From IMG/VR virus record IMGVR_UViG_3300027770_000246, positions 1-24,370 of that record: DNA of 24,370 nt; one strand, given 5' to 3'. A program made the translations under genes and the position numbers. Origin of the DNA: a virus. The notes beneath the pieces were generated by a model. It had not been told where the DNA came from and searched no databases. It was given only the letters and a program-made list of their open reading frames with translations. This document shows positions 20,504 to 22,990 of this stretch, piece after piece. Position 1 is the first letter of the stretch. Each line of letters starts with the position of its first letter.

Positions 20504-20581
20504 ATGAAATTATCAACAGAACTTTGTCCGTCAGTCTGCGCGAGGCGTGTTTCATCGCCAATCTCTTACCGCGTGGGCTGA
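20504..20581 (+). CDS. Possible 25-residue leader peptide
   Basis: ATG 20504 opens MKLSTELCPSVCARRVSSPI, then SYRVG, ending at TGA 20579-20581 inside the right arm of the downstream terminator. Ribosomes translating it would disrupt that stem, as in attenuators. There is no clear Shine-Dalgarno sequence and nothing else supports translation. Confidence 0.2.
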   Translation: MKLSTELCPSVCARRVSSPISYRVG

Positions 20582-20596
20582 CGGACTTTTTGTTTT
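20526..20596 (+). terminator. Terminator / attenuator before replication genes
   Basis: GTCCGTCAG (20526-20534) pairs with CTGACGGAC (20578-20586). The stem extends to 17 positions with wobble pairs and CGCG/CGCG (20539-20542 with 20570-20573). A nested GGCG/CGCC hairpin lies in the loop. TTTTTGTTTT follows and ends right at ATG 20597. Confidence 0.82.
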
Positions 20597-20791
20597 ATGA
20601 ATACCAGCGAAGACGGAAAAGAAATAATCTGCGAAACTAAGATGGAGGTTTCAGCTTACATCACAGAAGGCGGCGGCATTGCGATCGAGCAACTCGATCC
20701 GATGATGAATGAGTCGGGGCTGATCGTTATCCAAAAAAGCGACGTGTCGGCTTTGATTCGCGCTCTGAGCAAACTCAAAAAACGCTTATGA
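20597..20791 (+). CDS. Small unknown protein before replication initiator
   Basis: The 64-residue protein (MNTSEDGKEIICETKMEVSA) has a beta-rich start with AYITEGGGIAIEQLDP, then a C-terminal helix SDVSALIRALSKLKKRL. ATG 20597 directly follows the terminator's T run, so its translation start is next to the RNA 3' end made by termination and needs read-through. It overlaps the initiator gene by ATGA (20788-20791). No family is recognised. Confidence 0.55.
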   Translation: MNTSEDGKEIICETKMEVSAYITEGGGIAIEQLDPMMNESGLIVIQKSDVSALIRALSKLKKRL

Positions 20792-21657
20792 GCATCGGCT
20801 ACACCAAACTCTTTTCCAGCATCGTGACCTCGACGATCTGGGTCGAATCAGACCGGACGCGCATAGTGTGGATTACGATGCTGGCGATGGCGGACAGGAA
20901 CGGCGAGATTCAAGCATCCATTCCCGGACTCGCTCGATTGGCCGGCGTGCCGATTCCCGACTGTGAGGAGGCGCTTGCAAAGTTCATCGCGCCTGACCCC
21001 TACTCGCGAACACCGGACGACGAGGGGCGTCGCATCGAAAAGATCGAAGGAGGCTGGGCATTGCTCAACCATGCAAAGTATCGGGAAATGGCGAGCAGGG
21101 ATGACAGCAAGGCCGCGAACACCGAGCGTCAGCGCAGGCATCGCGAAAAGGAAAAGCGTAACGCCACAGTAACGCCCCGTAACGCCAAGGTAACGCCGAG
21201 TAACATCAAAGTAACGCATACCTTGCACATAGCAGAGGCAGAGGCAGAGGCAGAGGCAGAAGCAAGGAATACACATACAGCGCCGGTTCCCGTCGCGGCG
21301 GGCGATGAAGCTCCTGCCCGCGATTGTCCGTTTCCGCCTGAGGTCGCCCGCAAGCAGTCCGCTCGCGAGCTCGAAGCCGAATCGGTCTGGGCGCTTTACC
21401 CGAAGAAAAAAGGAAAGAAGGAGGCCATGCGCGAGGTTATCAATGCGATTCGAACCGAGGGCATCGAGCGCATCCGCGAGCGCGTGAAAGCGTATGCGGA
21501 TGCCGTCAGCCGGTGGTCGCAGGACGATCGCAAATACGTTCCTGACCCCGTGCGTTGGTTTAAGCGCGGGAACTACGACGACGACCCGAAAGAATGGCAG
21601 CGTAACGCAATTCCCGAATCCGAAAAGTCTGAATACAACAAAGATAATGCTTGGTAA
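20788..21657 (+). CDS. Replication initiation protein with winged-helix N-terminus
   Basis: The 289-residue protein has an N-terminal region (SIGYTKLFSSIVTSTIWVES, then VWITMLAMADRNGEIQASIP, then GLARLAGV) found in phage helix-turn-helix replication proteins. A charged RQRRHREKEKR linker (115-124) leads to a repeated NATVTPR/NAKVTPS/NIKVTH segment (125-144) and a run of Glu-Ala (about 149-159). The C-terminal part (VWALYPKKKGKKEAMREVI, ending VPDPVRWFKRGNYDDDPKEW) matches the usual end of this class. By analogy with lambda O it would bind the origin, perhaps the repeats within its own gene, and pass the site to the DnaC-like loader at 22322. Confidence 0.72.
   Translation: MSIGYTKLFSSIVTSTIWVESDRTRIVWITMLAMADRNGEIQASIPGLARLAGVPIPDCEEALAKFIAPDPYSRTPDDEGRRIEKIEGGWALLNHAKYREMASRDDSKAANTERQRRHREKEKRNATVTPRNAKVTPSNIKVTHTLHIAEAEAEAEAEARNTHTAPVPVAAGDEAPARDCPFPPEVARKQSARELEAESVWALYPKKKGKKEAMREVINAIRTEGIERIRERVKAYADAVSRWSQDDRKYVPDPVRWFKRGNYDDDPKEWQRNAIPESEKSEYNKDNAW
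21158..21218 (+). repeat. Six GTAACGCC-type iterons (candidate origin)
   Basis: GTAACGCC starts at 21158, 21169, 21179 and 21190, with variants GTAACATC at 21200 and GTAACGCA at 21211. Spacings are 11, 10, 11, 10 and 11 bases, averaging 10.6, so all copies lie on nearly the same face of the helix. They are inside the initiator gene, as in lambda ori. Confidence 0.75.
21232..21261 (+). repeat. GCAGAG hexanucleotide repeat
   Basis: Four GCAGAG units and one GCAGAA unit encode alternating Glu-Ala in the initiator. It lies 13 bases after the iterons. Slippage could vary the linker length. Confidence 0.85.
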
Positions 21658-22041: not shown

Positions 22042-22325
22042 CCGCCTCCCGCACCGCATACTGGCGCGAATACAATCGAAGAAACGCCGCTAAAAAACGC
22101 GAGCAGCACGCGGCGTTTCGCGAGCGGAACCGCGAGAAGGTCAACGCGGACAAGCGCGCGCTTCGGGCTGCGGGCAAGGTCGCGCCGCGCAAGGTGAGCG
22201 CGATTCGGGCGGTGAAGCCGACGGTCGCGAAGCCGCGCACGGACGAGGGAAAGGCTGAGGCCCTGCTCACGCTGCGGGGAAAGTTCGCGGCGTTTCGGGC
22301 AAAGCGGGCGGAGGGGAAGGGATGA
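22038..22325 (+). CDS. Small highly basic protein
   Basis: The 95-residue protein is Arg/Lys/Ala-rich (MTASRTAYWREYNRRNAAKK). Its first half is a single charged helix of the Y-x-x-x-N-R-x-x-x-x-K-x-R-E-x-x-x-x-x-R-E type seen in small phage nucleic acid-binding or HNH-linked proteins, but no zinc or nuclease motif is present. It probably binds DNA. It is coupled by ATGA to both neighbours, between the initiator region and the helicase loader. Confidence 0.6.
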   Translation: MTASRTAYWREYNRRNAAKKREQHAAFRERNREKVNADKRALRAAGKVAPRKVSAIRAVKPTVAKPRTDEGKAEALLTLRGKFAAFRAKRAEGKG

Positions 22326-22990
22326 CCGCGCAACCGATGGCCAGCCTGCTCGCGGGCGTCGTTCCTGAGGGATTCTCGGGCACTCCGTTCGATGGTGACG
22401 CCGCAAGCGCGCATTTCCTCGCAGAGGCCCGCAAACGCGACGCAATCGCCCGTTTCGATTCCGCCGTGCCTCCGACGATGCGGGAATCAGACTGGGGACA
22501 CGCTGGGATGGCCGCGAACCGCGCGCAGATCGAGCGAGTGCTTGCGCACCAAGTCGGGGCTAAGGGGCTGCTGCTGAGCGGCAGGACCGGACGCGGAAAA
22601 ACGCGCTCGATGTGGGCGCTCATGCGCAGGCTGGCGCACGAGGAGGCGCGGGACATCCGGTATTTCCACGCGGGCGATTGGTTCGCGACGTTGCAGGGAT
22701 GCCTCAACTACGGGCGGGACGATGCGCGGGGATGGGTCGATGCGGTGGCGCGTAGGCCGGTCGTGTTCATCGACGATCTCGGGCAAGAGGCAATCCAGAC
22801 CGCGCGCAGCGAGTGGGCGATGTCGTGGTTCATGCGCTTTCTCGACATCAGGGTGAGCGAGCGGCTGCCGCTCTACGTGACCACCAACCTCGATGCGCAG
22901 GGCATTGCCGAGCGCGGGGCTTCGAGCGTCAGGGGCGACCCGATGGTCAGGCGGCTCATCGAGATTTGCGAGCCGATCAAATTCGTTTAA
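22322..22990 (+). CDS. DnaC/IstB-like helicase loader ATPase
   Basis: The 222-residue AAA+ protein has Walker A GRTGRGKT (87-94), Walker B VVFIDDLG (147-154), sensor 1 VTTN (186-189) and the late RGDPMVRRLIEIC segment (204-216) with sensor/arginine residues. The N-terminal 60 residues are variable, as in DnaC-type loaders, where they bind the replicative helicase. It would load the host DnaB-type helicase at the site opened by the initiator at 20788. No phage helicase is seen. It overlaps the previous gene by ATGA. Confidence 0.85.
   Translation: MTAQPMASLLAGVVPEGFSGTPFDGDAASAHFLAEARKRDAIARFDSAVPPTMRESDWGHAGMAANRAQIERVLAHQVGAKGLLLSGRTGRGKTRSMWALMRRLAHEEARDIRYFHAGDWFATLQGCLNYGRDDARGWVDAVARRPVVFIDDLGQEAIQTARSEWAMSWFMRFLDIRVSERLPLYVTTNLDAQGIAERGASSVRGDPMVRRLIEICEPIKFV

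Follow-up and report, generated by a model that had tools for sequence, protein, structure and literature searches.

The window analyzed here is one entire IMG/VR virus record, a contig of 24 kb (24,370 nucleotides). Its plus strand carries a replication initiator gene and, downstream, a gene for a DnaC-like helicase loader. Two repetitive DNA elements are located within the initiator coding sequence, in front of the segment that encodes the C-terminal domain. The features at this locus are as follows.

20788..21657, + strand: replication initiator gene, 289 aa (phrog_270, replication initiation protein, E 6.8e-15)
20788..21069, + strand: N-terminal winged-helix domain, aa 1-94 (AlphaFold2 and invariant residues; conservation high)
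21070..21165, + strand: single long basic helix, aa 95-126 (AlphaFold2; covariation with iteron bases)
21118-21120 (N111), 21127-21129 (R114), and 21130-21132 (Q115), along with H118, + strand: specificity residues of the helix
21142-21144, + strand: R119, near-invariant (link between R119 and iteron base G1)
21158..21218, + strand: six GTAACGCC-like iterons, one per helical turn (spacing, pattern, and shuffle tests)
21232..21267, + strand: hexamer tract (GCAGAG)4-GCAGAA-GCAAGG, consensus NCANNN (third-base test; phase to the last iteron)
21370..21612, + strand: swappable C-terminal domain, 'WALYPKKKGKKEA...DPVRWFKRGNYDDD' (modules differ among relatives that share the N-terminus)
22322..22990, + strand: DnaC-like helicase loader (phrog_50, E 7e-15; phrog_3277, E 4.1e-12)

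That an initiator and a helicase loader are encoded near one another was part of the original prediction, and the phrog_270 and DnaC-like phrog_50 matches uphold it. The phrog_270 match covers initiator residues 22-270. Pfam profile searches returned no match for the initiator and weak IstB/AAA matches for the loader gene. An AlphaFold2 model made with 97 relatives places a winged helix at aa 8-92 and, after it, a single long helix at aa 95-126, with pLDDT values mostly of 89-98 in the N-terminal domain and low confidence in the linker. Structure searches with Foldseek yielded only generic winged-helix matches in the PDB, none with E<1e-3, and unnamed phage proteins in a viral library. The family profile had no match among PDB sequences, and a tblastn search of named phages with the window initiator gave a C-terminal match alone, in Faecalibacterium phage Lagaffe. 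The C-terminal domain, where aa 197-266 match phrog_10293, is the probable contact for the loader or helicase. Relatives with a common N-terminal half exchange their C-terminal domains, and the junction lies at or after the hexamer tract.

Upstream of these genes, an inverted repeat of 17 bp (20526-20542 and 20570-20586, 82%) is followed by TTTTTGTTTT, forming a terminator-like element (window 20526-20594) placed between a RusA-like gene and the initiator operon. GC skew has no clear turn at the initiator locus.

Phased iterons and an adjoining hexamer tract

Within the region that encodes the initiator linker, copies of GTAACGCC start at positions 21158, 21169, 21179, and 21190, followed by GTAACATC at 21200 and GTAACGCA at 21211. 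These direct repeats of about 8 bp have start-to-start spacings of 11, 10, 11, 10, and 11 bp, exactly as described in the original prediction, and the first copy overlaps the helix codons for R124-N125. No exact GTAACGCC occurs elsewhere in the contig. The phased pattern GTAACGCCN{2,3}GTAACGCC has three matches, all within the array, compared to 0 for a reversed-pattern control, and the array reaches a score of 27.4, well above 15.5, the 99% limit from codon shuffling. Translation passes through the word in two frames, as xGT-AAC-GCC (R/S-N-A) and as GTA-ACG-CC (V-T-P), and thus the peptide heptad is a by-product. The earlier observation of the repeats is confirmed by these results, but it was incomplete in that a second element, at 21232-21267, had been missed.

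Relatives from IMG/VR and GTDB genomes provided 198 distinct initiators with 194 unique linkers. The same 7-mer reappears 10 bp further on, with no more than one mismatch, in 152 of the 194 linkers, where codon shuffling produces a mean of 13.4. Recurrence is also above expectation at 11 bp (91 linkers versus 16.4), at 20 bp (72 versus 15.6), and at 31-32 bp (56 and 59 versus 10.6 and 12.4), and it dips at 13-17 and 23-28 bp. Autocorrelation among 50 non-redundant linkers, judged against synonymous-codon randomization that keeps the peptide, peaks at lag 10 (z=12.6) and is likewise raised at lags 11 and 20. Codon choice was evaluated in 45 genes of the GTAAC class. Here, the V of the linker "VT" is encoded by GTA in 117 of 123 instances compared to 65 of 465 elsewhere. 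Similarly, T is the last base of the codon preceding the linker N in 112 of 124 instances compared to 382 of 2273 elsewhere. Moreover, in 122 of 126 genes the copies are spread over two or three reading frames. Peptide repetition cannot produce such a pattern of phasing, codon bias, and alternating frames.

The iteron word differs from phage to phage (GTAACG, GTCAAC, GTCAAT, GTGGAC, GTAGAC, GTAGAA, GTCCCG, GTCACG, GTTAGC, and others), and the 10/11-bp spacing is found throughout. According to the original prediction, relatives that keep the peptide and lose the DNA repeats would speak against selection at the DNA level. The opposite is seen, in that the 10/11-bp repeat is kept while the word and the peptide vary. 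The comparison of synonymous conservation that was proposed at the same time points in this direction as well, given that V and N are nearly always encoded by the codons that spell the iteron. The comparative evidence therefore supports the conclusion that the iterons are selected at the DNA level inside the initiator gene.

The hexamer tract starts 21 bp, or two turns, after the last iteron in the window. Among 118 genes, its onset follows the last iteron by 10-11 bp in 24 and by 20-21 bp in 45. The encoded peptides vary in relatives (AEAEAE, ADTDTD, APAPDP, ASTTTT, and PTPTPT), and the DNA keeps NCANNN. With the second codon base as the sole criterion for picking tracts, A occupies the third position of 802 of their 982 alternating NCN codons, compared to 2382 of 11220 elsewhere; the corresponding values for GC-rich genes are 382 of 489 and 993 of 5963. 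This conserved tract adjoins the array, but the window copy is GC-rich (GCAGAG), unlike classical A+T-rich unwinding elements, and so simple ease of melting is not its explanation. The tract could be a strand-opening or initiator-loading element.

Covariation between a basic helix and the iteron word

For 131 genes (effective number 101), the bases at iteron positions 3-7 were compared with the residues of the protein by mutual information. The highest values belong to residues 114, 111, 102, 117, and 115, all of which reside on the helix formed by aa 95-126, and residues 40 and 110 come next. Iteron words were called with GT as the anchor, and seven strong non-GT arrays were set aside; that these seven start without GT is partly a consequence of this anchoring.

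In weighted counts, the base at position 4 follows residue 111, being A with N (24.8/24.8) or L (14/14), G with K (19/21), and C with E (4.3/5.3). Residue 114 corresponds to both position 5, which is C with R (44.9/47.9) and A with K (23/25) or Y (10/10), and position 6, which is G with R (41.9/48) and C with K (22/25). Weighted tallies also pair residue 115 with position 3, where A accompanies I or V, C accompanies K, T accompanies M, and G accompanies E. Arg is found at residue 119 in 190 of the 198 initiators. Two initiators of the GTAAC class carry no basic residue there: L008 has Tyr119 and CTAACGC-type copies whose first base is C in 5 of 5 strong copies, and L419 has Gln119 and a mixed first base of C, G, or A. 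These departures suggest that R119 probably reads iteron base G1.

To account for shared ancestry, a tree was built on the winged helix alone, with the helix excluded, and changes were counted by parsimony. Each of the nine gains or losses of G4 is placed on a branch along which residue 111 acquires or loses K or Q (P=2e-14), R114 and C5 change jointly on 8 of 11 (P 2e-10), and the pairs M115/T3 and E115/G3 each reach P 3e-5. For K114/A5 (P 0.09) and K115/C3 (P 0.02), the association is weak when ancestry is taken into account. Three winged-helix control residues (40, 42, and 53) exhibit no excess on this tree (P 0.1-1). The strictest sister-pair test, a greedy choice of the 65 closest pairs, gives the same direction, yet winged-helix residues 50 and 53 are also picked, and it thus separates the columns less cleanly than the tree test. 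Specificity probably lies in the basic helix that follows the winged helix and covaries with the iteron word. The winged helix itself was rejected as the specificity determinant because its best columns (40, 42, 50, and 53) score lower than the main residues of the helix, and because different words occur in phages whose winged helices are identical.

A natural cassette swap is evident in two relatives, L331 and L327. Their winged helices are identical (aa 28-99), they share the same hexamer tract and near-identical C-termini, and the flanking DNA is 90.7% (443-1511) and 92.2% (1671-2763) identical. The ~160 bp in between differ in L331 versus L327, with helix ...SQEKNRDRQRRFREK and a GTAACG array versus helix ...REAEADRKRRYREQ and a GTCCC array. 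The changes N111>E and Q115>K occur alongside AA>CC at positions 3-4, matching the code. Because helix and iterons are adjacent in one gene, a new specificity could be exchanged as one short cassette.

Two initiators can also occur on one contig. A 93.6-kb IMG/VR contig (L022) carries two paralogous initiators (L022:3007-3435 and L022:5887-6315) about 2.9 kb apart, which differ in helix and iteron class (GTCCCG versus GTAGA-type).

Other phage initiators and known systems

A pattern scan of IMG/VR for three phased GTAACG words identified at least 120 stretches, compared to a chance expectation that we estimate to be a handful. Among the matches listed, most are in phage initiator genes, which represent several N-terminal families. 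Again among the matches listed, 65 distinct ORFs with GTAACG arrays are outside the family, and 56 of them have the helix motif immediately in front of the array; residue 114 is R in 56 of 56 of these helices, even though the motif finder took K as readily as R at this position. Residue 111 in this set is mostly T, S, or N, and residue 115 is mostly V or Q.

For 13 named phages, the word was predicted from residues 111, 114, and 115 and ranked against all GTNNNN words of the gene; these predictions were written after the genes had been seen and are not formally blind. The predicted word ranks first in 8 of the 13 (SM1, phiPV83, Javan584, SpT5, E. coli phage EcoS-689R5, pAEv1818, Marin, and phi11), ranks second or third in A500 and phiS11, and is present as two copies 10 bp apart in ctOK67. 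Prediction fails in two of the 13, with no copy in 031MP002 and one copy in Javan374. The initiators of TP901-1, Tuc2009, Andrew, and Renaud18 have neither such a helix nor phased GT arrays, and therefore the module is not universal.

The location of the array is variable. In L638 (EcoS-689R5), L640 (pAEv1818), L643 (Marin), L512, L527, L541, and L566, there are two phased arrays, or one, within the segment coding for the N-terminal domain, besides or ahead of the linker. An initiator type that begins with 'MAGDWIK...' or similarly (L515, L517, L567, L569, L579, L582, and L587) carries reverse GTAACG arrays in its N-terminal part.

Several known systems share parts of this arrangement. In Bacillus phage SPP1, the direct repeats bound by gp38 are part of gene 38 itself, and oriL has an A+T-rich unwinding region (PMC6316719). 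When compared to this published layout, the window likewise has, within its initiator gene, repeats succeeded by a special tract, and the loader is a phage gene; unlike the SPP1 unwinding element, the window tract is not A+T-rich. The original prediction had instead drawn a parallel with lambda, which holds insofar as lambda also has iterons within its initiator gene O and an opening region neighboring them in ori-lambda (PMC5043065). However, each lambda iteron is an inverted repeat of 19 bp to which O binds as a dimer (PMC5043065), whereas the window has direct repeats of about 8 bp, one per turn and apparently one helix each. Lambda thus offers a positional analogy only, and SPP1 gp38/oriL is closer. 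Classical plasmid iterons have roughly double the length of those in the window, are contacted by the winged helices of Rep, and usually lie outside the gene. The iteron plasmids P1, RK2, and R6K resemble the window in their helix-phased direct repeats, initiator monomers, and adjacent opening region (PMC5043065).

The Phage_rep_org_N organizers (PF09681) of Firmicutes phages phi11, phiPV83, SM1, and A500 have an N-terminal DNA-binding domain, a basic helix with the same code positions, and linker iterons followed by a repetitive purine-rich or GATATA tract. In contrast to the window initiator, they belong to a different N-terminal family, and several of their arrays include inverted GTAACGTTAC copies. 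The PF09681 profile did not match the window and matched 1 of 97 relatives at E 0.0047.

A further likeness is to eukaryotic bZIP basic regions, whose DNA contact residues are i, i+3, i+4, i+7, and i+8, with the conserved Arg last, and for which GTCA and GTAA are CREB and PAR half-sites. The window helix, N111-x2-R114-Q115-x2-H118-R119, can be aligned with the bZIP pattern N-x2-A-A-x2-C/S-R, and the N-x7-R contact spacing is present (N111/R119) with specificity at 111, 114, and 115, a correspondence of analogy and not of homology. The words GTCA and GTAA likewise resemble the CREB and PAR half-sites. Unlike bZIP sites, the iterons are phased direct repeats rather than palindromes, and the helix is fused to a winged helix. 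The bZIP Pfam profile has no match in the window or in 97 relatives, and no leucine zipper was seen; the helix ends at residue 126 and is followed by the low-confidence linker. The resemblance to bZIP proteins is probably convergent. Among bacterial proteins, RptR has been proposed to be a bZIP-like repressor (PMC12255303).

A candidate replication origin

We propose, with a probability of roughly 0.85, that the locus is a phage replication origin that is written inside the initiator coding sequence and bound through a helix resembling a bZIP basic region. Initiator protomers would dock side by side along one DNA face, and the basic helix of each protomer (aa 95-126) would enter one major groove and read one GTNNNN iteron. 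In this model, R119 would contact G1, and positions 3, 4, and 5-6 would be read by residues 115, 111, and 114, respectively. The occupied array might then strain or open the NCANNN hexamers next to it, and recruitment of the DnaC-like loader (22322-22990) and the host helicase would fall to the C-terminal domain. Binding, groove geometry, strand opening, and origin activity are what we infer from the sequence patterns described above. It is also likely that the locus represents a widespread, modular origin-recognition system of phages, wherein a bZIP-like helix is carried by many N-terminal domains, a residue-to-base code relates it to the DNA, and helix and iterons form one cassette. The one-turn iterons, the helix code, and cassette swapping appear to be new, whereas origins inside initiator genes are already known. 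Among openly accessible papers, our literature search found none describing such a helix code and none reporting binding, footprint, or replication results for a member of this family.

One alternative is that the initiator binds the iterons mainly as an operator, for autoregulation or copy-number control, and that the origin is elsewhere. It is true that the covariation of helix and iterons speaks for a binding partnership rather than for origin firing, and that some initiators have two arrays, in the winged-helix part and in the linker. However, a site about 370 bp into the gene would be an odd place for an operator. We consider this explanation unlikely given also the conserved second element in fixed phase after the array, the DnaC-like loader downstream, and the similar layout of SPP1 oriL. 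Another protein, such as a host or phage regulator, could read repeats that hitchhike in the initiator gene, and the winged helix could have another target. This seems very improbable because the word changes with the initiator's own helix, both on the same tree branches and in the cassette swap, and because the GTAACG arrays of unrelated initiators accompany the same helix residues.

The repeats and hexamer tract might instead constitute a recombination junction for swapping of the C-terminal module, as swaps do occur right after the tract, and helix and iterons are swappable too. This proposal leaves the helical phasing, the change of word between phages, and the covariation with helix residues unexplained, and we regard it as highly doubtful. 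Finally, a disordered N-A-x-V-T-P linker could have grown by 21-bp duplications with no role for the DNA, which would fit a linker that is repetitive and modeled by AlphaFold2 with low confidence, as well as window copies that also make three 21-bp units. Such an origin by slippage or peptide-level repetition is contradicted by the codon, frame, and autocorrelation tests, and we assign it a negligible probability. The synonymous bias is extreme, the reading frames alternate, the half-step spacing exceeds the peptide-preserving null, and arrays in other initiators are reversed or located elsewhere in the gene.

To our knowledge, most phage replication origins are unknown. If the array is indeed an origin read by the basic helix of the initiator, and if the code holds, then both an origin and its specificity would be readable from the helix sequence. 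Phages could switch replicon specificity at a stroke, with protein and DNA site co-evolving in one gene and being exchanged as one cassette, and a bZIP-style recognition helix would be at work in prokaryotic viruses. A study of mycobacteriophage RepA found no repeats, and the origin was guessed to be in or just upstream of repA (PMC7157519). A helix rule of this type would say where to look for origins, though the one mycobacteriophage initiator that we inspected, from Renaud18, is without the helix and GT arrays. The linker of that initiator (L641, 283-1230) contains a 10-bp repeat, GAGGAACAGA/G, in about four copies, which is possibly another iteron type.
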